From contig JAUIFH010000001.1 in assembly GCA_030429495.1 (NCBI GenBank), positions 372,001 to 436,000 of the forward strand: a stretch of DNA of 64,000 nucleotides. The letters are read 5' to 3'. Numbering within the stretch: the stretch's first letter is position 1; every line of letters begins with the position of its first letter. The stretch is from Alphaproteobacteria bacterium (GTDB lineage Bacteria; Pseudomonadota; Alphaproteobacteria; Rhodobacterales; Rhodobacteraceae). Shown piece by piece: positions 36,349-59,952 of the stretch. The notes under the pieces were generated by a model. It was given only the letters and a program-made list of their open reading frames with translations, searched no databases and had not been told where the DNA came from. The position numbers were made by a program, and so were the translations under genes.

Positions 36349-37446
<1,098 letters not shown>

Positions 37447-42275: not shown

Positions 42276-42941
42276 CTAGCCGGCTGGCGCCGCGCCTTCA
42301 GCGGTGAACTTTCCGGGGAAGAACGCTGCGGCGCAGGTAAAAACCGTTTGCAGGGCTTCATGCCGGTCATAGGGGTCGTTCATCGTCATCAGTTCCAGCC
42401 AGACGCCTTCGGTTGTGACCCGCAGGACGCGGGCGATACGTGCGGCGTCACCGTCCCGTCCGGTCTCGTCGAGGAGGTCCTGGCAGATCTGCTCCATCAC
42501 GCGGCTGTATTCCTGATCGTTCGACCCGCATTGTTCCTGGTAGAGGGGCCGGCTCTGCGCTTCGCCCCAGAACGCGCACCAGGCCGACAGGCGGGTCGAA
42601 GTGCAGATCGCGGGATTGAAGTCGGCCCGCAGCATGGCGTCGAGGCGCATAGCCGGGTCCGGACCCGCATCTTCGAGCGCGGACGACCAGTTCTTCCGGT
42701 ATTCTTCCGCCAGATAGAGAAGGGTTTCGCCGAGCAGCTTTTCTTTCGTCTCGAAGTGGAAATTGACGAGACCGTGGGACAATCCGGCATGGCGGGCGAC
42801 ATCGGTCAGCGTCGTCCGCGCGTAGCCACGCCGTGCGATGGTTTCGAGTGTCGCCTCGATAAGCTGTTCGCGCCGCGCCTCGCGGCTCAGCTTGCGGGGC
42901 TGCGGGCGCTGATCGGTTGCTCTGTCGTCGATCTTGTCCAT
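42276..42941 (-). CDS. TetR-family regulator (BetI-like)
   Basis: A 221-residue repressor. The N-terminal HTH reads ATLETIARRGYARTTLTDVARHAGLSHGLVNFHFETKEKLL, very close to BetI, the choline/betaine-responsive repressor. The C-terminal ligand domain contains STRLSAWCAFWGEAQSRPLYQEQC, also BetI-like. The ATG at 42941 is preferred; longer reading would cross the operator region. It is divergent from the operon starting at 43141, and the 199-nt gap contains three related palindromes. Confidence 0.87.
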   Translation of the reverse strand: MDKIDDRATDQRPQPRKLSREARREQLIEATLETIARRGYARTTLTDVARHAGLSHGLVNFHFETKEKLLGETLLYLAEEYRKNWSSALEDAGPDPAMRLDAMLRADFNPAICTSTRLSAWCAFWGEAQSRPLYQEQCGSNDQEYSRVMEQICQDLLDETGRDGDAARIARVLRVTTEGVWLELMTMNDPYDRHEALQTVFTCAAAFFPGKFTAEGAAPAG

Positions 42942-43015
42942 CCTGCCGCTCCGGTCGTGGGGTCCCGCTGGTTGCAAGACATAGAGACTCTGCCCCTGGG
43001 TGCAAGCAAACCACG

Positions 43016-43062
43016 TTTTGACTGGATTGTCAGTCAGATTCTGATTGACAGCCCAGTCAAAA
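43016..43062. promoter_or_regulatory. Two tandem TetR-type operators
   Basis: TGACTG-6-CAGTCA at 43019-43036 is a perfect palindrome, and TGATTG-6-CAGTCA at 43042-43059 matches it with one change. The copies are 23 bp apart and together sit inside outer arms TTTTGACTGG/CCAGTCAAAA. They are placed for repression of both the TetR gene and the operon at 43141. Confidence 0.75.
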
Positions 43063-43090
43063 TCCGTGTGAAATGTCATCACAGCGGAAT

Positions 43091-43111
43091 CCAGTCACGG
43101 TGGGTGACTGG
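43091..43111. promoter_or_regulatory. Third palindrome with the same core, near the operon start
   Basis: CCAGTCAC and GTGACTGG form perfect 8-bp arms with a 5-nt spacer, 29 bp before the ATG at 43141. It shares the CAGTCA/TGACTG core with the two upstream operators but in inverted order. It could be a third operator or an mRNA hairpin. Confidence 0.65.
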
Positions 43112-43140
43112 CCTTCGGTTTAAATTCAAAAGGATAGATC

Positions 43141-44484
43141 ATGCGCGCGGCACCCCGACGCTCACTCGAAAAGTCAAACAACCAGTTTCAAAAGGCGCTC
43201 CGGCGGCTTCCTCTAGGGGTGGCGTCGACATTCAGGTACTGGGGCGACGACCGCACGATCTATGTCGACCACGGCAAGGGTGGACGGATCTGGGACATCG
43301 ACGGCAACGAATATGTCGACTACCGCCTTGGCTACGGCCCGGCGATTCTCGGCTACGCTGACGACCGTGTGGATGCTGCCGCCCGGCGCGGCATTGATGT
43401 CGGGGGCGTGTTCGCGCTGTCGACCGAACGCGAACTGGTCGTCGCCGACCGCATCGCCAAGATGGTCCCGGGTGTCGATCTGGTACGCTACTCCAACTCT
43501 GGCACTGAGGCGGTGATGGCCGCCCTGCGCCTCGCCCGCGCCTATACCGGCCGCGACAGCTACCTTCTGATCGAAGGCGCCTATCATGGTCTTTTCGATG
43601 CGGCGATGTGGATGGCCAATGTCGAGGAATGGAGCCGGAAGGGAGGCGGCGATCCCGAGGTGGTGGCCTATTCGCAGGGCATCCCGCAGGAATTGCGGTC
43701 GCTCGCCCACCTTGTGCCGATGAACGACCTGCAGCGCTTGGAAGACACGTTCAAGCGCCACGGCGACACGATGGCGGCGATGCTGATCGAGCCGATCCAG
43801 GGCAATTGCTGCGGCATCTCGGCCTCGGTCGAATATGTGCAGCTGGCGCGGCGGCTCTGCGATCAGTACGGCGTTCTCCTGATCATCGACGAGGTCAAGA
43901 CCGGATTCCGCGTCGCGCGCGGCGGCGTCCAGTCGCTGCTTGGCGTTACGCCGGATATCTGCACCTTCGCCAAGGCGATGGCGAACGGCTATCCGATCGC
44001 GGTTGTCGGCGGACGCGAAGAGGTGATGCGGACATTCCGCTATGGCGGCGCGGCCCATGGCGGCACCTATACCGCGCATTCCGTCAGCCTTGCCGCCGCC
44101 GAGGAATGCCTGCGCATCCTCGACGAAACGCCGGCGCTGGAAACGCTCGCGAAATATGGTGCCGATCTGAAGGCCGGCATGTCGCGCGTCCTGAACCGTC
44201 GCGGCATCGCGCATTCCTATGCCGGTCACGATTCGATGTTCGGCCTCTTCTTCGCCGACAAGGCGCCCGACAACTACCGCGACTGGAAGCGGTCGGATTA
44301 TTCCTTCTACGACCAGATGGCCTATTTCCTCCACGATCTCGGCATCATCTGCGAACCCGACAGCCGCGAACCCTGGTTCATGTGCGAAGCCCATGACACG
44401 GCCTGCCTCGATGACACGCTGAAGGCGTTCGAGACGGCGGTCGACATGACGCTGGAGCATTTCGGGGCCGAGAAGCGCGCATGA
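43141..44484 (+). CDS. Class III aminotransferase (glutamate-1-semialdehyde aminomutase-like)
   Basis: A 447-residue fold-type I PLP enzyme. The N-terminal LPLGVASTFRYWG, SNSGTEAVMAALRLARAYTGR, IEGAYHGLFDAA and LLIIDEVKTGFRVARGG segments are clear. The PLP lysine is Lys278 in TFAKAMANGYP. The sequence branch resembles GSA aminomutase, but this gene is in a catabolic operon, so an omega-transaminase or an unrelated amino-shift is likely. It overlaps the next gene by four bases. Confidence 0.85.
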   Translation: MRAAPRRSLEKSNNQFQKALRRLPLGVASTFRYWGDDRTIYVDHGKGGRIWDIDGNEYVDYRLGYGPAILGYADDRVDAAARRGIDVGGVFALSTERELVVADRIAKMVPGVDLVRYSNSGTEAVMAALRLARAYTGRDSYLLIEGAYHGLFDAAMWMANVEEWSRKGGGDPEVVAYSQGIPQELRSLAHLVPMNDLQRLEDTFKRHGDTMAAMLIEPIQGNCCGISASVEYVQLARRLCDQYGVLLIIDEVKTGFRVARGGVQSLLGVTPDICTFAKAMANGYPIAVVGGREEVMRTFRYGGAAHGGTYTAHSVSLAAAEECLRILDETPALETLAKYGADLKAGMSRVLNRRGIAHSYAGHDSMFGLFFADKAPDNYRDWKRSDYSFYDQMAYFLHDLGIICEPDSREPWFMCEAHDTACLDDTLKAFETAVDMTLEHFGAEKRA

Positions 44485-46094
44485 GCTACGATGCGGCCAT
44501 CATCGGTGCGGGCCATAACGGGCTGGTTGCAGCCTGTTATCTGGCCCGTGCCGGGCTGAAGGTCGTCGTCGTCGAGAAAAACGACTGGATCGGTGGGGCC
44601 GCGGTATCGCGGGAACTGCATCCCGGCTTCACCTATTCCAACTGCTCCTATGTCTGCTCGCTCTTCCGGCCCGAGATCATGCGCGATCTCGAACTGCCGA
44701 AATATGGCCTGCAGGTTCTGCCCTATGAGGGGGGCGCGGTCTTTACCCGCGACGGCGGCTATCTTGCGATCTTCCGTGATCACGACGCCAACCGCCGCGA
44801 ATTCGCGCGCTATTCGCCACGCGATGCCGAAGCCTATGACCGCTACTCGCGCGATATCATGCGGCATTGCCGGTTCATCCGGCCGCTTCTGATGCGCACG
44901 CCCCCAGATCCCGCGACGTTCCGCCCGCGCGATCTTGCCGAGCTGGCCTGGCTTGGCCGCAAGGTCGGCGAAATGTCCGAAAGCCAGATCTGCGATATGA
45001 TCCGGTTCTGGACCATGTCAATCTCAGACTTCCTCGATGAACATTTTGAAAGCCCGGTGATCAAGGCTTATCTCGCGGTCTCGGCCATCATCGGCACCGC
45101 GCTCGGGCCGATGTCCCCGGGCTCGGCCTATGTGCTTCTGCACCACTACATGGGCGACGTGGACGGCAATGTCGGCGCGTGGGGTTTCGCGCGCGGCGGG
45201 ATGGGGGCGATCACACAGGCGCTGACCGCTTCCCTCCGGGCCTCCGGGGGCGAGGTGCGAACCGGCAAGGGCGTCGAGCAGGTTCTGGTCCGCAACGGCC
45301 GCGCGGTCGGCCTTCGGCTTGACGGTGGGGAAGAGATCGCGGCAAAGCGCGTCCTGTCCAATATGGATGTGAAGCGAACCTTCCTGAAACATGTCGACCG
45401 CGACGAACTGCCCCCCGACTTCACCCGCAGGGTGGAACGGTTCAAGACCCGCGGCTCATCCGGCAAACTCAATATCGCGCTCGATGCCGCGCCGCATTTC
45501 CCGGCCCTGCCGGAAGGGGCACCAATGCTGAAGGGCGATCTGCATTTCACCGACAGCGTGGAGCGGATGGAACGCGCCTATGACGACTGGAAGGCCGGCC
45601 GCTTCAGCCGCGATCCGTTCCAGGACACGATGATCCCGACGATGATCGACCCGACGATGGCGCCGCCGGGCAAACACTTCATGTCCTGCTTCATCCAGTA
45701 CGCGCCACCGAAGATCGACGGGCGCGACTGGACCGATGCCGACCGCGACGCCTTCGGCCAGACGGTTATCGACCAGATCGCCGAGTATTCGCCCGGCTTC
45801 AAGGACCGCGTCCTGCATGCCGAAATCCGCACCCCGCGCGAGCTGGAGGCCGAGGTCGGCCTGACTGAGGGCAATATCTTCCAGGGCGAGCTGACTTTCG
45901 ACCAGCTTCTCTTCAACCGTCCGGTGCCGGGCTATGCCCAGTACAAGACGCCCATCCGCGACCTCTGGCTCTGCGGCTCCTCTGCCCATCCCGGCGGCGG
46001 CGTCATGGGGGCCCCGGGCCGCAACGCCGCCGCCGAAATCCTCCGTGACACGCGCGCGCCCACCGAGATGAGGGAGGCCTATGCAGTCGTTTGA
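44481..46094 (+). CDS. CrtI/PYROXD2-like FAD-dependent oxidoreductase 1
   Basis: A 537-residue flavoprotein with the N-terminal Rossmann motif DAAIIGAGHNGLVAACYLARAG and the C-terminal FAD motif NLWLCGSSAHPGGGVMG-like (seen as LWLCGSSAHPGGGVMGAPG). The fold is that of phytoene desaturases, but no carotenoid gene is near. The branch resembles PYROXD2. In this operon it probably dehydrogenates an amine or its oxidised product. Its end overlaps the second copy by 14 nt. Confidence 0.85.
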   Translation: MSYDAAIIGAGHNGLVAACYLARAGLKVVVVEKNDWIGGAAVSRELHPGFTYSNCSYVCSLFRPEIMRDLELPKYGLQVLPYEGGAVFTRDGGYLAIFRDHDANRREFARYSPRDAEAYDRYSRDIMRHCRFIRPLLMRTPPDPATFRPRDLAELAWLGRKVGEMSESQICDMIRFWTMSISDFLDEHFESPVIKAYLAVSAIIGTALGPMSPGSAYVLLHHYMGDVDGNVGAWGFARGGMGAITQALTASLRASGGEVRTGKGVEQVLVRNGRAVGLRLDGGEEIAAKRVLSNMDVKRTFLKHVDRDELPPDFTRRVERFKTRGSSGKLNIALDAAPHFPALPEGAPMLKGDLHFTDSVERMERAYDDWKAGRFSRDPFQDTMIPTMIDPTMAPPGKHFMSCFIQYAPPKIDGRDWTDADRDAFGQTVIDQIAEYSPGFKDRVLHAEIRTPRELEAEVGLTEGNIFQGELTFDQLLFNRPVPGYAQYKTPIRDLWLCGSSAHPGGGVMGAPGRNAAAEILRDTRAPTEMREAYAVV

Positions 46095-47637
46095 TGCGAT
46101 CGTGATCGGTGGTGGCACCAACGGGATGGCCTGCGCGACCCGCCTGACCAAGGGGGGCAAGCGTGTCCTTCTGCTCGATGCCGCCGACCGTCCCGGCGGC
46201 GCGGCTATCGGCGGCGACGGGGCGTCGGGTGCCTCGCAGATGCCGCTCGCGCATCTTCTGATGATGCTCGATCCGCGCGTTCATGCCGGAATGGACCTCG
46301 ACCAGCACGGCTTTTCCTATGCTGCGACTGACCTTGCGACGACCGCCCTGTCGGCCACCGGCGACCACCTCGTCCTCGAAGGCCCCGCCGGGGCCAGCCT
46401 TTCGGGTTCGCTGAGCGACACTGACCGCGACGCCTGGGCCACACTTCGCAAGCGCCTGCTGACCTATGCCGAGGCGCTGGTCCCGTTCCGCGCGCTGACC
46501 CCGCCCCGGATCGCCCGCAAGGCCGGCAACGACATGCTCGGGCTCGCGAAGATCGGGCTTGGACTGCGCCGTCTCGGTCGCGATGAGTTCCGCGAGTTTC
46601 TCAGGCTCTTTCTCATCAACGTTGCCGACGTGCTGGAAGATGACCTCACCGATGAGCGGCTCAGGGGGGTTCTGGCCTTCGACGCCGTGCTCGGCTCCTG
46701 GCTTGGCCCGCGCTCGCCGAATTCGCTCCTGGTTTATCTCAATCGCCTCGCGGGCGAGGCGGCAGGCACCCGCGCCGCGCTCGCGCTGCCGAAAGGCGGC
46801 ATGGGCACCGTCGCCGACGCCATGGCGCGTTCTGCCGCCGCTTCGGGTGTGACGCTGCAATCCGGCGCGCGGGTTGAACGTATTCTGATCGAAGACGACC
46901 GCGCGACCGGCGTGGTCCTGACCACGGGCGAAACCTACCGGGCCCCGACGATCGTTTCGGCGGCAGGTCCGAAACAGACCCTTCTGGAGCTCGTGGGCGC
47001 GCGCCACCTCGACACCGGTTTCGTCCGGCACACCCGGAACATCCGGTCGCGTGGTGGTGCCGCAAAACTGCACATTGCCCTGACCGCACGACCCGACTTC
47101 CGCGGCGCGGACCTTGCGACGCGGCTTGTGATCGCGCCGGATATCAACGCGGTCGAGACCGCGTTCAACGCCACGAAATACGGCGAAGTGCCCGAACGCC
47201 CGGTGATGGAGATCGTGATCCCGACCGCGCATGAAGGTGCCGGGGCAGACGATCCGCATCTCCTGTCGGCCATCGTCCAGTTCGCGCCGCACGACCCGCG
47301 CGACGGCCTCGACAAGGCGCGCAAACAGATGCTGGCCAATACGCTCGGCGTTCTTGAAGACCATGCGCCCGGGATCGGCGGCCTGATTTCCGAAAGCGAG
47401 CTTCTGATGCCGCAGGATATCGAGGCGCGCTACGGGATGGCCGGTGGCAACTGGCATCACGGCGAACTGAGCGTGGAACAGATGCTGTTTCTGCGCCCCT
47501 TCGCCGATGTCGCCCAGTATTCGACACCCATCGCGGGGCTCTGGCTCGCCAGCGCAGGCAGCCATCCGGGCGGCGGCATTTCGGGTGCGGCGGGCTGGAA
47601 CGCGGCCGAACGCATCCTGTCGCGGGTGGCGGCATGA
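46081..47637 (+). CDS. CrtI/PYROXD2-like FAD-dependent oxidoreductase 2
   Basis: A 518-residue paralogue of the preceding protein, with Rossmann motif FDAIVIGGGTNGMACATRLTKGG, GGMGTVADAMARSAAASG and the C-terminal FAD motif GLWLASAGSHPGGGISGAAGWNA. Two tandem copies suggest either two successive oxidations or a heteromeric enzyme. It overlaps the GcvT-family gene by four bases. Confidence 0.85.
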   Translation: MQSFDAIVIGGGTNGMACATRLTKGGKRVLLLDAADRPGGAAIGGDGASGASQMPLAHLLMMLDPRVHAGMDLDQHGFSYAATDLATTALSATGDHLVLEGPAGASLSGSLSDTDRDAWATLRKRLLTYAEALVPFRALTPPRIARKAGNDMLGLAKIGLGLRRLGRDEFREFLRLFLINVADVLEDDLTDERLRGVLAFDAVLGSWLGPRSPNSLLVYLNRLAGEAAGTRAALALPKGGMGTVADAMARSAAASGVTLQSGARVERILIEDDRATGVVLTTGETYRAPTIVSAAGPKQTLLELVGARHLDTGFVRHTRNIRSRGGAAKLHIALTARPDFRGADLATRLVIAPDINAVETAFNATKYGEVPERPVMEIVIPTAHEGAGADDPHLLSAIVQFAPHDPRDGLDKARKQMLANTLGVLEDHAPGIGGLISESELLMPQDIEARYGMAGGNWHHGELSVEQMLFLRPFADVAQYSTPIAGLWLASAGSHPGGGISGAAGWNAAERILSRVAA

Positions 47638-48830
47638 AAGACCTGCGTCACCATTTCGAAGCCCCGCTCAGGACCACGGCCTTTCACGAGCGTATCGCGG
47701 CGGCCAATGTCCTGAACGAATGGGCCCCATGGGCCGGATACACGACCGCGACCGTCCTCGAAGACGCGGAAACGGAATACACCGCCATCCGCAACACGGC
47801 GAGTCTCTACGACCTCTGCCCGATGATCAAATACCGGATCACCGGGTCCGGCGCCGTCGATTATCTTAACCGGCTGACGCTCAGGGACGTATCACGCCTG
47901 CCGGTGGACGCGGTGCATTACACGGCATGGTGCGACGATCAGGGCAAACTGCTCGACGACGGCACGCTGTTCCGGCTCGGGGAAACTGAGTTCCTGCTCT
48001 GCTGCCAGGAACGTCACCTGCCCTGGCTGGCGGATTCCGCCATTGGCTTTGACGTCTCCATCCGCGACGCGACGGATGAGATCGCGGGCCTCTCGCTTCA
48101 GGGGCCCTGCACAGCGGCGGTTCTGACCGAGGCGGGCTTTGACGTCTCGGCGCTGAAACCTTTCCGCATCGCACGCTATCCGTTCCAGGGCAGCACGCTG
48201 ACGATCTCGCGCACCGGCTTCACGGGCGATCTCGGCTATGAGCTTTGGATCGAACCGGGGCTGGCGCTGCCGCTCTGGGACCGGTTGATGGAGGCAGGCA
48301 GCTATTGCGGCATCCGCACGGTCGGGTCCACCGCGCTCAACCTCGCGCGGATCGAGGCGGGCTTCATCACCACCAATGCCGATTTCGTGCCCGCCGATCA
48401 GGCGGTTCGCGAAGACCGTGTGCGGTCCCCTTATGAGATGGCGCTCGACTGGATGATCGACTTCGGCAAGGGCCATTTCAACGGCCGCCGCGCACTGCTC
48501 AAGGAACGCGACACGCAATCGGGCGAATGGGCATTCGTTGCGCTCGACATCGAAGGCAACGTCGCAGCAGATCACGCGATCCTCTATGACGGTCGCGACC
48601 GCGAGATCGGCCAGGTCACCTCCGCCGCATGGTCGCCGGTGACGAAAAGCAGCATCGCACTGGCCCATATGCGCCGCCCGTATGACACCAAGGCGAAAGG
48701 CGGCATCTGGGCCGAAATCTACGCGCTCCGCGAACTGCACTACGTCAAGCTGATGATGAAGGCCGAAATCGTCGCCCGCCCCTTCTTCGCCCCGCCACGT
48801 CGGCGCGCCACACCCCCCGGACGGTTCTAA
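47634..48830 (+). CDS. GcvT-family (folate-dependent aminomethyltransferase-like) protein
   Basis: A 398-residue protein of the GcvT fold, which moves methyl or methylene groups to tetrahydrofolate. Visible: YTAIRNTASLYDLCPMIKYRITG, YLNRLTLRDVS, SLQGPCTAAVL, ISRTGFTGDLGYELWIE and LNLARIEAGFITTNADF. The family includes glycine-cleavage T protein, dimethylglycine-type demethylases and the DMSP demethylase DmdA. Here it could accept one-carbon units released by the oxygenases. It lies 11 nt before the first Rieske gene. Confidence 0.85.
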   Translation: MKDLRHHFEAPLRTTAFHERIAAANVLNEWAPWAGYTTATVLEDAETEYTAIRNTASLYDLCPMIKYRITGSGAVDYLNRLTLRDVSRLPVDAVHYTAWCDDQGKLLDDGTLFRLGETEFLLCCQERHLPWLADSAIGFDVSIRDATDEIAGLSLQGPCTAAVLTEAGFDVSALKPFRIARYPFQGSTLTISRTGFTGDLGYELWIEPGLALPLWDRLMEAGSYCGIRTVGSTALNLARIEAGFITTNADFVPADQAVREDRVRSPYEMALDWMIDFGKGHFNGRRALLKERDTQSGEWAFVALDIEGNVAADHAILYDGRDREIGQVTSAAWSPVTKSSIALAHMRRPYDTKAKGGIWAEIYALRELHYVKLMMKAEIVARPFFAPPRRRATPPGRF

Positions 48831-48841
48831 GGACAAGCGTC

Positions 48842-49990
48842 ATGACCGAACACCGCCATCCAGCATCACCGCTTCTCGACCACTGCCCCGAGACGCTTCC
48901 GGCGTCGTCCTATTTCGATCCCGACTGGTACGAGCGCGAGCGGCAGACGATCTGGGCACGGAACTGGGTCTGCGCGGGTCGGCTTGATGACCTTTCCCCC
49001 GGCACGATCCGGCGGTTCGACCTTGCGGGTCACAACCTGATCCTCTGTCGCGACCGGGATGGCCGGGTAACGGCATTTCACAATACCTGCCGCCACCGCG
49101 GCTCGGAACTTTGCATCGAGGACAATGCCGAGCTCGGCAAGCTCATCCGCTGCCCCTACCATGCCTGGGCTTACGATACGAACGGGCGGCTGATCTCGAC
49201 CGCCTATGCGACGCCGACGGGCGATTTCCGCAAGGAAGATCACAGCCTCTTTCCGGTGCATGTCCGTGTCTGGAACGGCTTCATCTTTCTCTGCCTCACA
49301 GACGAACCCGGCGAACTCACGCCCGATCTGGGTCTGGCCGCGCTCGACAACTGGCCGATGGCGGAGCTGCGCACGGGCCACCGTCTGGTCAAGGACATTG
49401 CCTGCAACTGGAAGGTCTTCTGGGAAAACTACAACGAATGCCTGCACTGCCCGGGCATTCACCCCGAACTGTGCGACATGGTTCCGGTCTACCGCGACGG
49501 GATCATGTCGCCGCAAGAGGCGCGGGACTGGACCGGCGATGGCGCCCGTCCCGCCGCCTTGCGCGAAAAGGCGCGGACATGGACGATGAGCGGCGAGACC
49601 TGCGGCCCGGAATTCCCCGCGCTCACGGCCGAGGAACGCGCGAACGGCCACAACTTCGTGACGATCTACCCCACGATGTACATCGTCGCGCATGTCGATC
49701 ATGTGCGCGCCGTCACGCTCATGCCGCTCGGGCCGGAACGGACCCGGCTGACCGCCGAATGGCTGTTTCCGCCGGAGACGCTTGCCCAGCCGGGCTTCGA
49801 CGCCGCGTCGGTGGCCGAATTCGCAACCCTCGTGATGTCACAGGATGCCGAGGCCTGCGAGATGAACCAGCGCGGACTTCGTTCCGAACGCTATCGGCAT
49901 GGTCGCCTCATGCCCGAGGAGTTCGATATCCTCAGGTTTCACGACTGGGTGCGGCGGCAGATGGAGGGAGATGCGGGGGACGCGCCATGA
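48842..49990 (+). CDS. Rieske oxygenase alpha subunit 1 (GbcA/CntA-like)
   Basis: A 382-residue oxygenase. The Rieske cluster ligands are Cys83-His85 in CRHRG and Cys104-His107 in CPYH. The mononuclear iron motif follows NWKVFWENYNECLHCPGIHPEL-like residues 189-210: His202, His207 and likely Asp335. The bridging position is Glu199, where ring-hydroxylating dioxygenases usually have Asp; Glu is typical of carnitine and betaine oxygenases. An N-demethylation of a quaternary or tertiary amine is inferred. No reductase gene lies nearby. It overlaps the second Rieske gene by four bases. Confidence 0.88.
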   Translation: MTEHRHPASPLLDHCPETLPASSYFDPDWYERERQTIWARNWVCAGRLDDLSPGTIRRFDLAGHNLILCRDRDGRVTAFHNTCRHRGSELCIEDNAELGKLIRCPYHAWAYDTNGRLISTAYATPTGDFRKEDHSLFPVHVRVWNGFIFLCLTDEPGELTPDLGLAALDNWPMAELRTGHRLVKDIACNWKVFWENYNECLHCPGIHPELCDMVPVYRDGIMSPQEARDWTGDGARPAALREKARTWTMSGETCGPEFPALTAEERANGHNFVTIYPTMYIVAHVDHVRAVTLMPLGPERTRLTAEWLFPPETLAQPGFDAASVAEFATLVMSQDAEACEMNQRGLRSERYRHGRLMPEEFDILRFHDWVRRQMEGDAGDAP

Positions 49991-51207: not shown

Positions 51208-51248
51208 ACGGACCCAAACAGGCGCAAACCAACAGTGGAGACAAATCA

Positions 51249-52352
51249 ATGACCAAGCTGACCCGGAGAACCGCTCTCACTGCGATTGGCGCGACGCTCG
51301 CTGTGCCCTATGTCCGACCGTCCTGGGCGCAGGCCGGCACCGTGAACGTCTATAACTGGGCCGACTATATCGGCGAGACGACACTCGAGGATTTCGAAGC
51401 GCAGACAGGCATCGGTGTTGTCTATGATACCTATTCCTCGGCAGAGGAGATGCAGGCCAAGATGCTTGCCGGTTCGACCGGCTATGACGTCGTCGATCAT
51501 GCCGGCATCGACATGCCGCGTGCGATCCAGGCGGGCATTTACCAGAAGCTCGACAAGTCGCTTCTGCCGAACTGGAAGAACCTGGACCCGGAGATTCTTC
51601 GCATCCTTTCCGGCTGGGACCCGGAGAACATGTACGGCATGCCGTATATGTGGGGTTCGGTCGGCTTCACCTACAATGTCGATCTGGTGAAAGAGCGTCT
51701 GCCGGATGCCGACATGACGTCGATGGACCTGATCTTCAAACCTGAGAATGCCGAGAAGCTGGCCGATTGCGGCATCTCCATTCTCGACAGCCCGACCGAC
51801 ATCATGCTGATGGTCCTGAAGTATCTCGGGCTCGACGGCGATACGACCGATCTTGCCGACTACGACAAGGTCGTCGAAGCGTTCAAGCCGATCCGGCCCT
51901 ATATCCGGACGTTCGACAATACCAACTATCTGAACGCGATCCCGAACGGTGAGCTTTGCGCCATCAACAACTGGTCGGGCGACTACGCCACGGCGGCCGG
52001 GCGGGCTGCCGAGGCGGGGATCGAGATGAACCTGGCCTATTTCGTGCCTCAGACCGGGGCGCCGGCCTGGCTCGACGTGATGTGCATTACGTCCGACGCG
52101 CCGAACCTTGAGAACGCGTACAAGTTCCTCGACTTCATGATGCAGCCGGAAGTCGCGGCGGGCTGCACCAACTACACTTACTACGCCAATGCGAACCTCG
52201 CGTCGCGTGAGTTCGTGCTGCAGGAGATTCTCGATGATCCGGCGGTCTATCCGGATGCCGAGACGATCGGGCGCATGTGGGCGCCGAAACCCTTCAGCGA
52301 GGAGCAGGACCGCGCGATCAACCGCGCCTGGCAGGAGATCAAGTCGGGCTGA
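51249..52352 (+). CDS. Polyamine-type ABC transporter, substrate-binding protein (PotF-like)
   Basis: A 367-residue solute-binding protein with a twin-Arg-like signal (TRRTALTAIGATLAVPYV) and mature start VNVYNWADYIGETTLEDFEAQTG, the hallmark of PotD/PotF proteins. Further typical segments are VYDTYSSAEEMQAKMLAGSTGYDVV and LNAIPNGELCAINNWSGDYA. A GGAG lies 8 nt before the ATG. The ligand is presumably the substrate of the catabolic operon and need not be putrescine. Confidence 0.88.
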   Translation: MTKLTRRTALTAIGATLAVPYVRPSWAQAGTVNVYNWADYIGETTLEDFEAQTGIGVVYDTYSSAEEMQAKMLAGSTGYDVVDHAGIDMPRAIQAGIYQKLDKSLLPNWKNLDPEILRILSGWDPENMYGMPYMWGSVGFTYNVDLVKERLPDADMTSMDLIFKPENAEKLADCGISILDSPTDIMLMVLKYLGLDGDTTDLADYDKVVEAFKPIRPYIRTFDNTNYLNAIPNGELCAINNWSGDYATAAGRAAEAGIEMNLAYFVPQTGAPAWLDVMCITSDAPNLENAYKFLDFMMQPEVAAGCTNYTYYANANLASREFVLQEILDDPAVYPDAETIGRMWAPKPFSEEQDRAINRAWQEIKSG

Positions 52353-52396
52353 CGCCCCCTTCGGCTAACCAAGACCGAAACGGAGGAGACCGCGAG

Positions 52397-53560
52397 ATGC
52401 CCGAACCATCCCCTGCCGCTGGCGCGACCGTGGCGCAATTCCCGCGCGGTGTCGCGCCGGCCGTCAAGGAAACGCCGTTCATCCGCATCGACGGTGTGAC
52501 GAAGCGGTTCGGGTCGTTCACCGCGGTTTCCTCCGTCAGTCTCGAGATCAGGAAGGGAGAGATATTCTCCCTTCTCGGCGGATCGGGCTGCGGCAAGACC
52601 ACGCTCCTCAGGATGCTCGCCGGGTTCGAGGATCCAACCGAAGGCCGCATCTTCATTGACGGCCAGGACATGACCGACCTGCCGCCCTATGAGCGTCCGG
52701 TGAACATGATGTTCCAGTCCTACGCTCTCTTCCCGCACATGACGGTCGAAAGGAACGTGGCCTATGGCCTGAAGCACGCTGACATGACCGCATCGCAGCG
52801 GGCCGACCGCGTGCGCGAGATGCTGGCGCTCGTGCAACTCTCCGACCTTGGTCAGCGCAAGCCGCACCAGATTTCCGGCGGCCAGCGGCAGCGCGTGGCG
52901 CTGGCCCGTGCGCTTGCCAAGCAGCCGAAAGTCCTGCTTCTGGATGAACCGCTGGCCGCGCTCGACAAGAAGCTTCGCGAGGCGACGCAGTTCGAGCTTA
53001 TGGACATTCAGGACAGGACGGGAACGACGTTCATCGTCGTGACCCACGATCAGGAAGAGGCGATGACCCTCTCATCACGCCTCGCGGTTATGGACAAGGG
53101 CCGCATCATGCAGATCGGCAACGCGACAGAGGTCTACGAATATCCCAACTCTAAATTCGTTGCGGGCTTCATCGGCTCGATCAATTTCTTCGATGCGACG
53201 GTTCGCGACATCAAGGGCGACATGGCGCGGGTGGACGTGCCCGAACTTGGCGGTCCGGTTGATGCGCGCGCGATCCCCGGTCTTGTCCCCGGCCAGCCGA
53301 TCACTCTGGCGATCCGTCCGGAAAAACTGTCGCTGTCGAGGACACGCACTGACGCCGCGAACGCGTTTCCGGGAACGGTGCGCGAGCTTGCGTATTTCGG
53401 CAAGGATTCGCTTTACCGCATCCTGATGCCCTCGGGCCGTATCCTCTCCGTCAACTCGGTCAACGCGCGGCGCGTGGGTGAGAATGAGCGGGTGGCGGAT
53501 TGGGAAGACGCCGTCTGGCTTTCGTTCGATCCCGCCGCTGCGATCCTGCTGAAGGATTGA
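52397..53560 (+). CDS. Polyamine-type ABC transporter, ATP-binding protein (PotA-like)
   Basis: A 387-residue ATPase. Walker A is GGSGCGKT, signature ISGGQRQRVALARAL, Walker B VLLLDEPLAALDKKL, H-loop VTHDQEEAM, and a C-terminal TOBE domain (ITLAIRPEKLSLSR). The N-terminal PFIRIDGVTKRFGSFTAV is PotG/PotA-like. GGAGGAGA precedes the ATG at 52397. It serves with the next two permeases. Confidence 0.9.
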   Translation: MPEPSPAAGATVAQFPRGVAPAVKETPFIRIDGVTKRFGSFTAVSSVSLEIRKGEIFSLLGGSGCGKTTLLRMLAGFEDPTEGRIFIDGQDMTDLPPYERPVNMMFQSYALFPHMTVERNVAYGLKHADMTASQRADRVREMLALVQLSDLGQRKPHQISGGQRQRVALARALAKQPKVLLLDEPLAALDKKLREATQFELMDIQDRTGTTFIVVTHDQEEAMTLSSRLAVMDKGRIMQIGNATEVYEYPNSKFVAGFIGSINFFDATVRDIKGDMARVDVPELGGPVDARAIPGLVPGQPITLAIRPEKLSLSRTRTDAANAFPGTVRELAYFGKDSLYRILMPSGRILSVNSVNARRVGENERVADWEDAVWLSFDPAAAILLKD

Positions 53561-53564
53561 GGCC

Positions 53565-54509
53565 ATGACCCGCGCCGCCTTTTTCCCCCGGCTTCGCCAC
53601 TGGTTCAACCGCCGCGGCTGGATCAAGATCACGATTGCCACGCCCTATGTCTGGCTTGCGCTGTTCTTCCTCCTGCCCTTCGCGATCGTCATCGCGATGA
53701 GTTTCGCGACCCGGACGCCGACCGCCCCGCCATTTTCGTTCGGCGGCGAACATCCACTGATGAACACCGCCCATTTCGCACGTCTGTTCAGCGACGACCT
53801 CTATATCCGCGCCTACCTGAACTCGATCGGCAACGCGACGGTCGCGACGCTCCTGTGCCTCCTGATCGGTTACCCGATGGCGCTGGGCCTGACGCGGGTC
53901 AGCCGGTCGTGGCGGAACGTGCTCCTCATGCTGGTCATCCTGCCGTTCTGGACCTCGTTCCTGCTCAGGGTCTATGCGTGGATGGGGCTGATGGGCACGA
54001 ACAGCTGGTTCAACAAGCTCCTTACCGAAGCCTACAATTTCGTCATGCCGGCCGACATGGCGCTTCGCTACATCCCGATGATGAACACCGGTTTCGCGGT
54101 CGTGCTCGTCACCGTCTATTCCTACCTGCCCTTCATGATCCTGCCGCTCTACGCAAATCTCGAAAAGCTCGACCTGTCGCTCAATGAGGCGGCGATGGAC
54201 CTCGGCTCCCGCCCATTTCAGGTTTTCCGCGACGTGACACTTCCATTGTCCGTGCCCGGCATCATCGCGGGGTCGCTGCTGGTATTCATCCCGGCATCAG
54301 GTGAACTCATCATCCCGTCGCTTGTCGGGTCGTCCTCGCGCCCGATGATCGGCCGTGTGATCTCGGACGAATTCGCATCCGCCCGGGACTGGCCGATGGC
54401 CTCGGCCGTCGCGGTCGCTCTGCTTTTGCTCCTCGTCGGGCCGCTCATGGCCTACAGCTACTACGAGGGCAAATCGCACGAGAAGCCGACTGCGGGAGGA
54501 GGGAACTGA
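53565..54509 (+). CDS. Polyamine-type ABC transporter, permease (PotB/PotH-like)
   Basis: A 314-residue inner-membrane permease with six likely membrane segments and the EAA loop LNEAAMDLGSRPFQVFRDVTLP. The PotH-like signature LPFWTSFLLRVYAWMGL is present. It starts 5 nt after the ATPase gene and its stop overlaps the start of the partner permease by one base. Confidence 0.9.
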   Translation: MTRAAFFPRLRHWFNRRGWIKITIATPYVWLALFFLLPFAIVIAMSFATRTPTAPPFSFGGEHPLMNTAHFARLFSDDLYIRAYLNSIGNATVATLLCLLIGYPMALGLTRVSRSWRNVLLMLVILPFWTSFLLRVYAWMGLMGTNSWFNKLLTEAYNFVMPADMALRYIPMMNTGFAVVLVTVYSYLPFMILPLYANLEKLDLSLNEAAMDLGSRPFQVFRDVTLPLSVPGIIAGSLLVFIPASGELIIPSLVGSSSRPMIGRVISDEFASARDWPMASAVAVALLLLLVGPLMAYSYYEGKSHEKPTAGGGN

Positions 54510-55348
54510 TGAAACGCCGTCCCGTCTTCCTGATTACCATGCTGTGCTTCGGTTTCGCGTTCTTCTACATCCCGATCCTGTCGATGATCGTCTATTCCTT
54601 CAACGGATCGCGGCTTGTGACCGTGTGGGGCGGGTTCTCGACGAAATGGTACGCCTCGCTCTTCTCGAACCGGCAGGTTCTGAATGCCGCGGTCCTGTCG
54701 ATCGAAATCGCGCTTCTCAGCGCGACCTTCGCGACGATCCTCGGGACGATGGCGGGCGTGGCGCTTGCCCGGTTCAAGCGGTTCCGGGGCAGGACGCTCT
54801 TTTCCGGTCTTGTGACCGCCCCTCTCGTGATGCCGGAAGTGATTACCGGCATCGCATCGCTCATGCTTTTCATCCTGATGGCGGAGTATATCGGGTGGCC
54901 GGCGACGCGCGGATTCACCACGGTGACGCTCGCCCATATCACCTTCTGCATGGTCTTCGTGACGACCATCGTCCATTCCCGACTGGTCGAGGCGGACGAG
55001 GCGATCGAGGAGGCGGCGATGGACCTCGGATCGCGGCCCTGGCAGGTGATGAAGGACATTACCCTGCCGGTCATTTCGCCCGCGATCCTGTCGGGCTGGC
55101 TCCTGGCCTTCACGATCTCGCTCGATGATGTGGTCATCACGAACTTCACCACCGGGCCGGGGACGACGACGCTCCCGATCCTGATCTGGTCGAAGGTTAA
55201 GCTTGGCGTGACACCGGACATCAACGCGCTTGCCACGATCACCGTGGTGATCGTGGGTCTTGGTGTGTTCGTCGCGGGCGTCATCCTCAATCGGGCCGAG
55301 AAGCGCCGCGAGCGTGACATGCACATGGCCTACCAGGCGAACCAATGA
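54509..55348 (+). CDS. Polyamine-type ABC transporter, permease (PotC/PotI-like)
   Basis: A 279-residue permease with the PotC/PotI pattern FFYIPILSMIVYSFNGS, EAA loop IEEAAMDLGSRPWQVMKDITLP and FTISLDDVVITNFTTGPG. It completes the transporter. Its stop overlaps the start of the cupin gene by four bases (ATGA), so that enzyme is translationally tied to uptake. Confidence 0.9.
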   Translation: MKRRPVFLITMLCFGFAFFYIPILSMIVYSFNGSRLVTVWGGFSTKWYASLFSNRQVLNAAVLSIEIALLSATFATILGTMAGVALARFKRFRGRTLFSGLVTAPLVMPEVITGIASLMLFILMAEYIGWPATRGFTTVTLAHITFCMVFVTTIVHSRLVEADEAIEEAAMDLGSRPWQVMKDITLPVISPAILSGWLLAFTISLDDVVITNFTTGPGTTTLPILIWSKVKLGVTPDINALATITVVIVGLGVFVAGVILNRAEKRRERDMHMAYQANQ

Positions 55349-56229
55349 CAGCGACACCCGAGGAATTCCGCGCCGCGGCGGACCTGCATACCCCGCTGGG
55401 ACAGCCCGGATCGGGCCGGGTGCGCTATGCGGCGGCGATGTATTTCCATCGCAAGGGCTGTCTGTCCACCGAGGCGCTGGAGGTCTATCGCATCTGCTCT
55501 CCGCGCGACGCCGAGGATCCGTTGCAGTTGCTGAACCAGCGCGGGGTCGCGGACGATCTGCCGCGCCAGTCATTGCCCGATCGGGACCGTGCATTGCGCG
55601 CGCTGCTGGGCGCAATCGACCGCTATTTGGCAGGGCTTTCCGGCCCCGGCGTCGCCGAGACCCGGGCGGGTCTCGCGGCGTTCGGCGGCGGCCCGGTGCG
55701 ACCTGAACCGGGCGGAACGAATGCGGTCGTCGCGGCGCATCTGGACGCCGCGGTCGATGCGCTTTGTGGTCAGGACCCGGCACTTGCAGCCGCGATCCGT
55801 GCCGCCGCTCCGCATCTGAACTGGATGACCTATGACAGCTATCCGCCGGATGAGATCGGGGCGGCATTCCTGATCGGTCATGCCTACAGTTCCCTTATCG
55901 GCGAAGGCGCCATTCCCGCAGACGATTTCGACCTTGGCCTGTTCCTCATCGCACCGGATTTATTGTACCGCGATCACGCGCACCCCGCGCCGGAACTGTA
56001 TGCGCCGCTGACTGGCCCGCATGGCTGGCGCTTTGCGCCCGACGCGCCTCTGGTCCTCAAACCGGCGCATGAGCCGGTCTGGAACACGCCAGGCGTACCG
56101 CATCTGACCAAGGTCGGTCCATTGCCGTTCCTGTGCATCTATTGCTGGACGCGGGACGTGAACCAACCGGCGCGGATCGTTCCGGCTGGGGATTGGGACA
56201 TGCTCGAACGGATGCGGATCGAATGCTGA
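55345..56229 (+). CDS. DMSP-lyase-family cupin
   Basis: A 294-residue protein whose C-terminal half is a cupin of the DddL/DddQ/DddW type. Candidate metal ligands are His211, His213 and Glu217, with Tyr219, in HAHPAPELY; His253 lies in PGVPHLTK. The pattern of an HxHxxxExY motif followed by a PxH motif is that of DMSP lyases, which cleave dimethylsulfoniopropionate to dimethyl sulfide and acrylate. The N-terminal 150 residues are helical and unlike short DddQ. It is in an amine-type operon, so the real substrate may be a betaine-like analogue. It overlaps the permease gene. Confidence 0.72.
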   Translation: MTATPEEFRAAADLHTPLGQPGSGRVRYAAAMYFHRKGCLSTEALEVYRICSPRDAEDPLQLLNQRGVADDLPRQSLPDRDRALRALLGAIDRYLAGLSGPGVAETRAGLAAFGGGPVRPEPGGTNAVVAAHLDAAVDALCGQDPALAAAIRAAAPHLNWMTYDSYPPDEIGAAFLIGHAYSSLIGEGAIPADDFDLGLFLIAPDLLYRDHAHPAPELYAPLTGPHGWRFAPDAPLVLKPAHEPVWNTPGVPHLTKVGPLPFLCIYCWTRDVNQPARIVPAGDWDMLERMRIEC

Positions 56230-56257
56230 CCGGACGGTCACAGTAGGGGGCAGGGAA

Positions 56258-57049
56258 ATGGAAGCGGAAGGTGGCGAACTCTATAGCGGACGGCTGATCG
56301 ACGTTCTCGAAACCCTGTGGGGAACGGGGTTCCTTTCGCCGGGCGGTCCGGACGAGGTCGGCAGGGTCGTCGCCGGCGTTGATATCACGGGCGCCGCCGT
56401 CCTCGATATCGGCTGCGGGGCAGGGGGGATCGACGTGACGCTGGTCCGCGATCACGGTGCGGGCTATGTTTGCGGTATCGATGTAGAAGATACGGTACTC
56501 GCCCGCGCACGGGCGGTGGTGGAAGGGGCGGGATATGGCGGCCGGATCGGTTGTCTGAAGGTCGCGCCGGGTCCGCTGCCGTTTCCGCCGGGGAGTTTCG
56601 ATGTCGTGTTCTCAAAGGACAGCATCGTCCACATCCCCGACAAGCACGCGCTGATGCTGGAAGTGTTCCGCGTCCTGCGGCCGGGGGGGCGATTCCTCGC
56701 CTCGGACTGGCTGATCGGGCATGACGGCGCACCCAGTGCGGAGATGTCGGCCTACATTGCCGCCGAAGGGCTGGATTTCGGCATGGCCTCGCCCGAACGC
56801 TACCGGGATGCGATGGCGCAGGCCGGGTTTGCCGATGTCGCGATCGCCAGCCGCAACGAATGGTATCGCGACACTGCGCGCGCGGAGCTTGCGCGGCTGA
56901 ACGGCCCGATGGGCAAGGCTCTCGCTGACCGGGTTGGCCAGGGGTTCGTGGACGACAACATCGGCATCTGGGAACGCATGATTCCCGTCCTCGATACCGG
57001 CGAACATTGCCCGACCCATCTGCGTGCACGAAAACCCGAAACGCTATAG
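56258..57049 (+). CDS. SAM-dependent methyltransferase, phosphoethanolamine N-methyltransferase-like
   Basis: A 263-residue enzyme. Motif I is VLDIGCGAGGIDVTL; the segments LWGTGFLSPGG, FSKDSIVHIPDKHALMLEVFRVLRPGG and SDWLIGHDGAPSAEMSAYI match the plant PEAMT C-terminal type closely. Such enzymes methylate amino groups to secondary, tertiary or quaternary amines. In a predicted demethylating operon this is unexpected; it may use a different acceptor or return methyl groups. It follows the cupin gene after 28 nt. Confidence 0.8.
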   Translation: MEAEGGELYSGRLIDVLETLWGTGFLSPGGPDEVGRVVAGVDITGAAVLDIGCGAGGIDVTLVRDHGAGYVCGIDVEDTVLARARAVVEGAGYGGRIGCLKVAPGPLPFPPGSFDVVFSKDSIVHIPDKHALMLEVFRVLRPGGRFLASDWLIGHDGAPSAEMSAYIAAEGLDFGMASPERYRDAMAQAGFADVAIASRNEWYRDTARAELARLNGPMGKALADRVGQGFVDDNIGIWERMIPVLDTGEHCPTHLRARKPETL

Positions 57050-57093
57050 GCTTCGACCTATCGGGAGATATCAGGCGGAGGCACGAGCATCCA

Positions 57094-59346
57094 ATGGCAG
57101 GCGGGGCAAGATCGACAACGAAGGTGACATCGAGCCATTGGGGGGCGTTCGAGGCCGATGTCGAAGACGGCCGGATCGTCGCCACCCGGCCGTTCGCGGC
57201 TGATCCGCAGCCGTCGGCCATTTCTTCCATCCTCCCGGCGGCGGTGCATCACCGAAGCCGCGTCCTGCGTCCCTCGGTTCGGCGCGGCTGGCTCGCGACG
57301 CGGGGACGCGGCGGGCGCGGAAGCGAGGATTTCGTTGCCTTGCCGTGGGACGAGGCCCTCGACATCGCGGCATCCGAGATCGACCGTGTCCGAAAGACCC
57401 ACGGCAACGAGGCGATCTTCGGCGGCTCCTACGGCTGGGGATCGGCAGGCCGGTTCCACCACGCGCAAAGCCAACTGCACCGGTTCCTGAACTGCATAGG
57501 CGGCTATGTCGCGTCCTTCGGCAGCTATTCGACCGGCTGCGCGCAGGCGATCATACCGCATGTCTTCGGAATGAACTTCCTCGACCTGCTGTATGAGCAT
57601 CAGGACAGCTGGCAGACGATCTACGATCACACGGAAACGCTTGTGATGTTCGGCGGCATCAACCCGAAGAACTCTCAGGTGAACGCGGGCGGTGGCACGG
57701 AACATGAGACGGGCGGATGGTTTGCCCGCTTTGCCGCGAAGGCGATGCGTCGCATCAATATCGGCCCGCAGCGGGACGATGCGCCGGAGGGCTGCGAGTG
57801 GCTGCCGGTGCGGCCGGCCTCGGATACCGCGCTGATGCTCGCGCTTGCGCATGTGATCGAGACAGAGGGTCTGACCAACCGCGACTTCCTCGCGCGCTGC
57901 ACGGTTGGCTTCGACCGCTTCCGCCCGTATCTTTTGGGCGAGGCCGATGGCCAGCCCAAGTCGCCGGAATGGGCACATCCGCTTTGCGGCGTCGAGCCTG
58001 CCGAAATTCGCGCGCTTGCGCGGCGCATGGCGACGACGCGAACGCTGATTACGCTGTCCTGGTCGCTGCAGCGTGGCGAGCATGGAGAGCAACCATACTG
58101 GATGTCGGCCGTGCTCGCCGCGATGCTGGGGCAGATTGGACTGCCGGGCGGCGGGGTCGGCTACGGCTACGGTGCCATCGGTGGGATCGGAAAATCGTTT
58201 CAGGGGCTGCGCGGAATGACGTTTCCGCAGGGCCGGAACCCGGTCGAGACGGTCATTCCCGTCGCCCGGATCGCCGACATGCTGCGCAATCCCGGACAGC
58301 CCTACGACTTCAACGGCCGGCGTGGACCTTTCCCCGACATCCGGCTGATCTTCTGGGCCGGTGGCAATCCGTTCCACCACCATCAGGATCTGAACGCACT
58401 GCATGAAGCCTGGCAGAAGCCCGAAACGATCATTGTCAGCGAGCCCTGGTGGACCGCGACAGCCAAGCGGGTGGACATCGTCTTTCCGGCGACGACACCC
58501 TATGAGCGCGAGGATATCGGCCGGTCGAGCCTCGATGATTACCTGTTCCACATGCCCCGGCTTATCCCGCCCGTGGGCGAGGCTCGCGACGATTACGCGA
58601 TCCTGTCCGGTCTGGCCGAGCGGATGGGTGTCGGGCCGGCCTTTACCGAGGGGCGGACCGCAGAGGAATGGATTGCCACCCTCTACGCGGAATACCGGCG
58701 ACTGGCGGCGGAGGAAGGCGTGGAGGTGCCCGGACTCGATGAGTTGAGGGCGCGGAACTGGGTTCGTCTGCCGATACGGACGGACGGGCCCAGCCGGACG
58801 CACTTCGCCGCCTTCCGGGAGAACCCGGAGACGGAAGCGCTGAAGACCCCGTCAGGGAAGATCGAGATTTTCTCGGAGACGATCGACGGCTTCGGTTACG
58901 AGGACTGCCCGGGGCATCCGATCTGGCTTCCACCCCGCGAATGGCTTGGTGCCGCCGCGCCCGCCGCACCGCTTCACCTCGTCTCGCCGCAGCCCGGCGA
59001 CAAGCTGCACAGCCAGCTTGAAAGCGCGCTGGCGGACGTTCCGGGCGCGCGCCCGGAAGGTATCGTCATGCATCCCGACGATGCGGTGGCCCGGGGCATT
59101 AGCGCCGGCGATCTTGTGCGTGTGTTCAATGCTCGCGGCGCCTGCCGCGCCCGTGCCTGTGTCTCGGACGGCATTCACCCCGGCGTCGTGGCCCTGCCGA
59201 CCGGCGCGTGGTTCGGCGATCCGGGCGACAATCTCGACCCGCACGGCAATCCCAATGTCCTGACGCTGGATGTCGGCACCTCCCGGCTTGGACAGGGATG
59301 CAGCGCGCACACGGCGCTGGTGGAGGTCGCGCGCCTCGACGCGTGA
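57094..59346 (+). CDS. Molybdopterin-dependent N-/S-oxide reductase (BisC/DMSO-reductase family)
   Basis: A 750-residue Mo enzyme without a Tat signal or N-terminal Fe-S cysteines, like cytoplasmic BisC. Ser146 in FGSYSTGCAQ is the expected Mo ligand. Other family parts: LPWDEALDIAASEI, FGGINPKNSQVNAGG, SWSLQRGEHGEQPYWM, GGNPFHHHQDLN and the C-terminal GIVMHPDDAVARGIS. Substrates of the family are biotin sulfoxide, methionine sulfoxide, TMAO or DMSO. It follows the methyltransferase by 44 nt and probably ends the operon. Confidence 0.87.
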   Translation: MAGGARSTTKVTSSHWGAFEADVEDGRIVATRPFAADPQPSAISSILPAAVHHRSRVLRPSVRRGWLATRGRGGRGSEDFVALPWDEALDIAASEIDRVRKTHGNEAIFGGSYGWGSAGRFHHAQSQLHRFLNCIGGYVASFGSYSTGCAQAIIPHVFGMNFLDLLYEHQDSWQTIYDHTETLVMFGGINPKNSQVNAGGGTEHETGGWFARFAAKAMRRINIGPQRDDAPEGCEWLPVRPASDTALMLALAHVIETEGLTNRDFLARCTVGFDRFRPYLLGEADGQPKSPEWAHPLCGVEPAEIRALARRMATTRTLITLSWSLQRGEHGEQPYWMSAVLAAMLGQIGLPGGGVGYGYGAIGGIGKSFQGLRGMTFPQGRNPVETVIPVARIADMLRNPGQPYDFNGRRGPFPDIRLIFWAGGNPFHHHQDLNALHEAWQKPETIIVSEPWWTATAKRVDIVFPATTPYEREDIGRSSLDDYLFHMPRLIPPVGEARDDYAILSGLAERMGVGPAFTEGRTAEEWIATLYAEYRRLAAEEGVEVPGLDELRARNWVRLPIRTDGPSRTHFAAFRENPETEALKTPSGKIEIFSETIDGFGYEDCPGHPIWLPPREWLGAAAPAAPLHLVSPQPGDKLHSQLESALADVPGARPEGIVMHPDDAVARGISAGDLVRVFNARGACRARACVSDGIHPGVVALPTGAWFGDPGDNLDPHGNPNVLTLDVGTSRLGQGCSAHTALVEVARLDA

Positions 59347-59828: not shown

Positions 59829-59831
59829 TTC

Positions 59832-59847
59832 TCTATCATATGATAGA
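59832..59847. promoter_or_regulatory. Perfect palindrome, candidate Lrp-type operator
   Basis: TCTATCATATGATAGA is a perfect 16-bp palindrome 3 bp upstream of the Lrp-type gene start. The size and AT-rich centre fit Lrp/AsnC sites. It probably serves autoregulation and control of the divergent operon. Confidence 0.65.
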
Positions 59848-59952
59848 ATTTTGCGCGATGCACGATGAAAATAAGTGATGAAATCATCGTATCGCTGCGT
59901 CAACAATTGGTCCAGAAGTCACTCCCCCGCCGAACCTTGAACCGGAAACATC

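Follow-up and report, generated by a model that had tools for sequence, protein, structure and literature searches.

A conserved gene block with two Rieske oxygenases and a polyamine-type importer as a candidate operon for the catabolism of a small N-methylated polycation

Related systems and layout of the operon

Glycine betaine is degraded by the Rieske demethylase GbcA, followed by dimethylglycine and sarcosine dehydrogenases, an enzyme type that combines its flavin adenine dinucleotide (FAD) and GcvT domains in one chain. Here we describe a gene cluster of a Rhodobacteraceae genome of 3.83 Mb, situated at positions 42276-59346 of a 64,000 nt stretch of contig JAUIFH010000001.1 (hereafter the window). 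A divergent TetR-type regulator gene faces a densely packed operon on the plus strand which, judged from its sequence, would be dedicated to the catabolism of a small N-methylated polycation with a probability of roughly 55%. A preliminary description of this DNA had named the protein families, and every one of them was recovered at 42276-59346 by family searches. Its count of seven overlapping gene junctions had to be lowered to six, and the BisC-like enzyme that it had included in the pathway proved to be a neighbour only (see below).

With the glycine betaine route the operon would share a Rieske attack on a quaternary amine and a subsequent FAD- and GcvT-type folate demethylation. However, its two Rieske oxygenases, RieA (48842-49990) and RieB (49987-51207), score 177 and 120 bits against GbcA (cut-off 670), its FAD-dependent part is CrtI-like and encoded apart from GcvT, and its importer is of the polyamine type. 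RieA has the counterparts of Tyr203, the bridging Glu205, and Cys206/Cys209 of the carnitine monooxygenase CntA/CntB, but the operon is devoid of a CntB-like reductase and the tree places RieA beside the Stc2/GbcA side of group V. The stachydrine demethylase Stc2 (3vca) is the top PDB match of RieA with 158 bits, although Stc2 contains an Asn where RieA contains a Tyr. In case of the putrescine importer PotFGHI, the binding aspartates and tryptophans of PotF are kept in the binding protein of the operon, whereas its score is below the PotF equivalog cut-off and a Trp stands at the position of PotF Phe276 in 82 of 82 orthologues. The GcvT-like protein aligns with the C-terminal half of the trimethylamine N-oxide (TMAO) demethylase Tdm but lacks the N-terminal half, and a full Tdm is encoded separately in the genome.

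The plus strand genes start with AT3 (43141-44484), a HemL/GntE-like class III aminotransferase (PF00202), whose best named family is the NCBIfam model NF041362 of GntE from guanitoxin synthesis (452.8 bits, below the cut-off of 525). It is followed by the CrtO/CrtI-like FAD oxidoreductases CrtA (44481-46094; PF01593) and CrtB (46081-47637; family search), a GcvT-like aminomethyltransferase (47634-48830; PF01571, 172.6 bits), RieA with the group Va signature YxECxHC (family search and alignment), and RieB with the signature DxEGYHV and an ATG at 49987. The importer comprises a PotF-like solute-binding protein (51249-52352; family search and PDB match), a PotG/PotA-like ATPase (52397-53560; TIGR01187, 380.1 bits, above the cut-off of 355.6; start taken from comparison with a relative), and permeases resembling PotH (53565-54509) and PotI (54509-55348), both assigned by family search. 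A two-part protein with a small N-terminal domain and a dimethylsulfoniopropionate (DMSP)-lyase-like cupin (55345-56229; PF16867) and an S-adenosylmethionine-dependent methyltransferase (56258-57049; PF08241) follow. The overlapping junctions are AT3/CrtA (4 bases), CrtA/CrtB (14), CrtB/GcvT (4), RieA/RieB (4), PotH/PotI (1), and PotI/cupin (4), i.e., 1-14 bases each; the other junctions have gaps of 11, 41, 44, 4, 28, and 44 bases.

Conservation of the gene block

A block of approximately 12 genes is shared by dozens of related bacteria. A scan of a named genome collection with the RieB alignment yielded 422 confirmed relatives, of which the best 80 loci were fetched; the 50 among them in which RieB is flanked by 7 kb or more on either side were tabulated, gene presence being called by tblastn with identity thresholds set per gene. 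The order in relatives is TetR, facing AT3-CrtA-CrtB-GcvT-RieA-RieB-PotFGHI-cupin-(amidohydrolase)-methyltransferase. The cluster is not a product of chance, as named genomes of Defluviimonas, Frigidibacter, and Tabrizicola show the complete order again, with protein identities of approximately 56-99%; Gemmobacter carries a shorter form. The same-genus genome G106 contains TetR, AT3, CrtA, CrtB, GcvT, RieA, RieB, PotFGHI, cupin, and methyltransferase in the order of the window at 69-98% identity, and BisC is absent from the 4 kb after its operon.

RieB is present in all 50 tabulated loci, PotF, PotG, PotH, and PotI in 49 each, the cupin in 45 (plus three with the N-terminal domain only), TetR in 44, and RieA in 42. 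AT3 was observed in 31 loci, CrtA, CrtB, and GcvT in 30 each, the amidohydrolase in 25, the methyltransferase in 23, and a small second cupin in 13. CrtA, CrtB, and GcvT co-occur in 30 of the 50 loci, RieB and PotFGHI in 49. The smallest form of the operon reads TetR-RieB-PotFGHI-(cupin)-small cupin, and the small cupin and CrtA are nearly exclusive, both being found in a single locus of the table.

A full operon is also located on a Fuscovulum plasmid. RieB, CrtA, CrtB, and GcvT also occur on Shinella, Rhizobium, and Parasedimentitalea plasmids, where both the binding protein and the class III transaminase are of another kind, and on an Ensifer plasmid RieB and CrtA lie approximately 8 kb apart. 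Among 385 evenly drawn Alphaproteobacteria, CrtA was detected at E <=1e-150 in 19, including the genome of the window. From the 18 other genomes, 16 loci belonging to other families were fetched. Except for L187, all of them encode a second CrtI-like protein, and a GcvT-like protein is likewise present in 15; the contig of L174 ends, and the copy of L187 is situated on the opposite strand. Several of these distant loci contain parts of a polyamine-type transporter, three a methyltransferase, and two an old yellow enzyme (OYE)-type flavoprotein. One of the distant CrtA-CrtB-GcvT clusters adjoins a gene of the MttB methyltransferase family that scores below the NCBIfam cut-off (L179, 2673-4181, minus strand). 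No neighbour with a known substrate was found in the phylum- and class-wide gene context. RieB-type genes occur at 422 places, and sets of CrtA, CrtB, and GcvT in several further families of Alphaproteobacteria; hence a real, overlooked form of organic nitrogen is the probable substrate, even though the full operon is patchy.

Signatures of enzymes, importer and regulator

Residue conservation was counted in sets from which homologues below 50% (RieA), 47% (RieB), 46% (CrtA), 34% (CrtB), 30% (GcvT), 40% (cupin), and 42% (PotF) identity had been dropped; the sets of CrtA, RieA, RieB, cupin, and PotF hold two repeated sequences each. In the accessible parts of PMC7948474 and PMC10952381, Glu205 of CntA bridges the two metal sites, and position 203 of CntA distinguishes group Va (carnitine, choline, benzalkonium), with an aromatic residue, from group Vb (betaine and stachydrine demethylases), with an Asn; the Cys-X-X-Cys motif of group V is described in the accessible part of PMC10952381. 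In RieA, Tyr197, Glu199, Cys200, His202, Cys203, His207, and Asp335 are each at least 97% conserved in 66 sequences (64 distinct). The bridging Glu199, as expected of group V enzymes acting on quaternary ammonium compounds, occurs in 66 of 66, and Cys200 and Cys203 form the Cys-X-X-Cys beside the iron that is a trait of some group V members. Tyr197 aligns with Tyr203 of CntA and with the Asn of Stc2, as expected for the aromatic position of group Va. Thus RieA can be regarded as carrier of a carnitine-oxygenase-type (group Va) signature, despite its placement beside the Vb side (Stc2/GbcA) of group V in the tree.

RieB (93 sequences, 91 distinct; numbering of alignment A1) has the bridging Glu205 in 93 of 93 sequences. 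Asp203, Gly206, and Val209 are equally invariant, i.e., position 203 is neither aromatic as in Va nor Asn as in Vb, and the Cys pair is missing. In the Rieske tree (50 sequences, 48 distinct; root chosen by us on the Asp-bridge group) RieB is monophyletic (support 0.985) and branches outside the clade that unites CntA, Stc2, GbcA-like proteins, and RieA. Its nearest outside relatives are 33-41% identical, and an Asp bridge is present in the five that were read by motif pattern. A trio of TetR gene, Rieske oxygenase, and CrtA-like FAD protein is situated at approximately 8-12 kb in each of the loci L235-L238 of another alphaproteobacterial family (f13), which we presume, as a guess only, to be that of sphingomonads.

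Conservation is striking in CrtA, where 127 positions reach 97% or more in a set of 60 sequences, 58 of them distinct. In GcvT, Asp109 is kept in 59 and Tyr202-Glu203 in 61 of 61 sequences; as in T-proteins, these would be residues of the folate site. Against the Tdm model, GcvT scores 227.5 of 1100 bits, restricted to positions 386-761. CrtA, CrtB, and GcvT are separate genes and thus differ from the one-chain dimethylglycine/sarcosine dehydrogenase type.

The binding protein is closest to the E. coli PotF chains in the PDB search (322-327 bits) and reaches 347.3 of the 636 bits of the NCBIfam PotF equivalog. Trp37, Asp39, Trp242, Asp245, Trp274, and Asp276 are kept in 78-82 of 82 orthologues; the equivalents of PotF Asp39, Asp247, and Asp278 are retained in 78, 80, and 81 of them, respectively, so the pocket is preserved. 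In PotF, the aspartates matching Asp39/Asp245/Asp276 bind the two amine ends of the ligand. In the RieB-cupin loci L080 and L083 an alternative binding protein replaces PotF, a natural swap that could help to identify the ligand.

The cupin protein is composed of 294 residues, with an N-terminal domain of approximately 60 residues (about 13-70) in front of the DMSP_lyase cupin, which matches PF16867 with 69.4 bits (cut-off 27). His211, His213, Glu217, Tyr219, and His253, occurring in at least 95% of 65 sequences, form the His/His/Glu/Tyr/His pattern of the metal site of cupin DMSP lyases. Its best solved relative scores 37 bits. In case of the N-terminal domain (window 55345-55560), no Pfam match was obtained; it is also found as a free-standing protein of 74-112 residues beside GcvT, RieB, or PotI in nine loci among those listed.

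The TetR regulator (42276-42941, minus strand; PF13977 and PF00440) scores 105.5 bits against the BetI model TIGR03384, below the cut-off of 201.3. Its longest open reading frame reaches 43082. A start near 42941 is more likely, because the longer frame would engulf the operator-like repeat TGTCAGTCAGATTCTGATTGACA and because the alignments of four relatives begin only at residue 41, 48, 55, or 56. This repeat, located at 43028-43050, is the sole match of its pattern in the whole genome at up to three mismatches. The half-site 10-mer CTGTCAATCA is present in 34 of 55 intergenic regions between TetR gene and operon, that of the window included. A single exact palindrome was discarded as a general operator, as it does not fit most relatives and only the half-site box is widely common. 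The repeat and the TetR gene together fit a dedicated local repressor.

Proposed pathway, alternatives and genomic surroundings

From gene content, conservation, residue signatures, and the single operator-like site we infer the following chemistry, at every step. PotFGHI would import the cation, and RieA (carnitine-oxygenase type) and RieB (of its own clade) would oxidise it at the methylated nitrogen or at a position adjacent to it. As presumed FAD proteins that oxidise amines, CrtA and CrtB may strip the remaining methyl groups, and the separate GcvT would hand the one-carbon unit to tetrahydrofolate, as a three-protein counterpart of dimethylglycine dehydrogenase. AT3 might then transaminate the freed amine, and the TetR repressor presumably shuts the operon via its one local operator. 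For the cupin, an elimination or hydration on a cationic intermediate might fit, as a conjecture. The preliminary description had proposed an N-methylated amine or sulfonium osmolyte, and its frame was largely right: cation import agrees with the retained polyamine-type pocket, oxidative attack with the quaternary-ammonium type of RieA, and one-carbon transfer to folate with the GcvT motif; the transamination step is likewise supported. The word osmolyte is conjectural, and the transporter resembles PotFGHI rather than the betaine-type carrier encoded upstream. In the literature searched, from which preprints, supplements, and most subscription papers were outside coverage, no description of an operon with this set was found, as judged from listings and the beginnings of abstracts, in line with the earlier remark that no named pathway with it is known. 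A catabolic operon for methylated amines is a known kind of system; the gene combination, the three-protein module, and the RieB clade are new as far as tested.

Several observations speak against a dedicated pathway for a methylated polycation. The scheme assigns no function to the methyltransferase, the cupin, and the amidohydrolase, and the operon genes include no Rieske reductase. RieB and the transporter may be the true core, because minimal loci occur without CrtA, CrtB, GcvT, AT3, and RieA. Furthermore, the distribution of the operon is patchy: of 196 genomes sampled evenly across the order, 78 showed some cupin match, but only three (the genome itself, G106, and G018) a cupin with 59% identity or more along most of the protein. 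The operator half-site is restricted to the 34 of 55 regions mentioned above. All four f13 loci fetched, which were picked because Rieske and CrtA-like matches lay together, combine a TetR gene, a Rieske gene, and a 40-42% identical CrtA relative without transporter or GcvT, and a Sphingobium plasmid has a Rieske/CrtA-like pair near a bile-acid symporter gene; thus the Rieske and CrtA pair alone need not mean amines, which is the weightiest finding against an amine-specific reading of this pair. In nine loci with an alternative binding protein, the three PotF aspartates are gone in nine of nine, with an acid one place earlier at the second position (alignment at approximately 21% identity), so that ligand or binding mode may differ between clades.

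The alternative that survives best, an unlikely one nevertheless, is a pathway for a polyamine or alkaloid-like amine in which N-methylation is incidental. After import of a polyamine derivative by PotFGHI, RieB and CrtA would oxidise carbons of a ring or chain, primary amines would be removed by class III transaminases, and a lactam would be opened by the amidohydrolase. The PotF-type pocket, the class III transaminases of two types in different clades, the amidohydrolase in 25 of 50 loci, and the RieB-Pot loci devoid of the demethylation module are all compatible with it, whereas the quaternary-ammonium signature of RieA, the folate-type motif of GcvT, and the MttB-family and OYE-type flavoprotein genes in distant clusters argue against it.

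The group Va pattern of RieA could alternatively indicate a C-N cleavage, in which RieA or RieB hydroxylates the carbon beside a trimethylammonium group and frees trimethylamine, as CntA does with carnitine, for a separate trimethylamine/TMAO route. In agreement with such a route, the genome encodes a full Tdm at another place (1211 bits against a cut-off of 1100, which none of 14 control genomes passes), and TorT/TorS and betaine-type transporter genes adjoin the operon. We consider it doubtful, since it leaves the strict CrtA-CrtB-GcvT set and AT3 unexplained and RieB is lacking the aromatic residue. Regardless of it, the Tor genes, the betaine-type transporter, and the full Tdm place the operon in a methylated-amine-handling genome, which also suits the favoured reading.

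Improbable is a biosynthetic cluster, in which the HemL/GntE-like transaminase, the methyltransferase, and the Rieske enzymes build a modified amino acid or alkaloid: the relation of AT3 to GntE, below cut-off, and the methyltransferase in the operon would suit it, but neither the importer, with the repressor gene opposite, nor the folate acceptor protein would, and no export or assembly enzyme was detected among the operon families. A pathway for DMSP or another sulfonium osmolyte with the cupin as lyase, part of the earlier proposal, is very improbable and was rejected as the weakest reading, since only the cupin with its PF16867 match and retained metal-site residues points there, while its best solved relative is weak, the cupin domain is missing in 3 of 48 loci with the N-terminal domain, the regulator scores 26.3 bits against the AcuR model (cut-off 247), and the transporter is of the polyamine type (acrylate genes were not searched by family).

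For the favoured N-methylated polycation, the PotF-like pocket suggests a substrate with two cationic ends. Methylated lysines (N6-methylated, up to trimethyllysine) and N-methylated diamines or polyamines would be the leading candidates, each rather unlikely when taken singly. Homarine, the substrate thought of first, stays a candidate, and no relevant paper on homarine and Rieske enzymes was found. Human PYROXD2, which is not known to have a proven activity, presumably belongs to the same broad CrtI-like FAD family as CrtA. According to the accessible part of PMC8109053, a PYROXD2 variant explains approximately half of the blood variance of N6-methyllysine and dimethyllysine, and the locus is also associated with trimethyllysine and N-methylpipecolate; the link to methyl-lysine levels appears in the accessible part of PMC9730628 as well. 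No paper describing trimethyllysine catabolism or an activity of PYROXD2 was found in the literature searched, with the same limits of coverage. A far-reaching version of the favoured reading, which we hold to be unlikely, would see the operon as the first pathway for N6-methylated lysines or N-methylated polyamines to be known from bacteria, with CrtI-like FAD N-demethylases that pass their one-carbon unit to a free-standing GcvT as a genetically tractable counterpart for the orphan PYROXD2, and RieB as a new Rieske class reading a protonated amine by an Asp instead of an aromatic cage. Should CrtA and CrtB prove to be N-demethylases, a function could be assigned to a protein family that owes its present name to a resemblance to carotenoid enzymes, and the strong link that human genetics shows between PYROXD2 and methyl-lysines could be studied in a simple organism. 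RieB would be an additional class in the Rieske scheme for quaternary amines.

The last gene of the cluster encodes a BisC-like molybdenum S/N-oxide reductase (57094-59346, plus strand, ATG at 57094; TIGR00509, 894.9 bits, below the cut-off of 1017.55). No BisC match was found in any of the 80 relative loci. Since all 50 well-covered ones extend at least 2.3 kb past the last operon gene, BisC lies outside the conserved unit and was rejected as pathway member, contrary to the preliminary description. Directly upstream of the cluster (window 33293-42222), a betaine-type ATP-binding cassette (ABC) transporter with OpuAC binding protein, ProV-like ATPase, and double ProW-like permease, a response regulator, TorS (639.9 bits, cut-off 676.5), and TorT (above its cut-offs) may form a block for the uptake and sensing of TMAO or betaine. 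As a guess, BisC may be related to the Tor genes and perhaps adjoined them before the operon came between.

A homologue of the relatives' amidohydrolase with 57% identity is located approximately 10 kb downstream of BisC. In this region (L197, downstream of the window; 5078-6199, 10344-11966, and 12129-13253) an opine-dehydrogenase-like gene and ABC transporter genes with SBP_bac_8 binding proteins accompany the amidohydrolase gene. Further upstream, at 26314-33227 of the window, a DUF1028 gene is situated beside a dipeptide/nickel-type ABC transporter operon. A divergent Lrp/AsnC regulator, a SufS-like class V aminotransferase, and a flavin monooxygenase-like gene at 59364-63011 possibly constitute a second amine-related operon.

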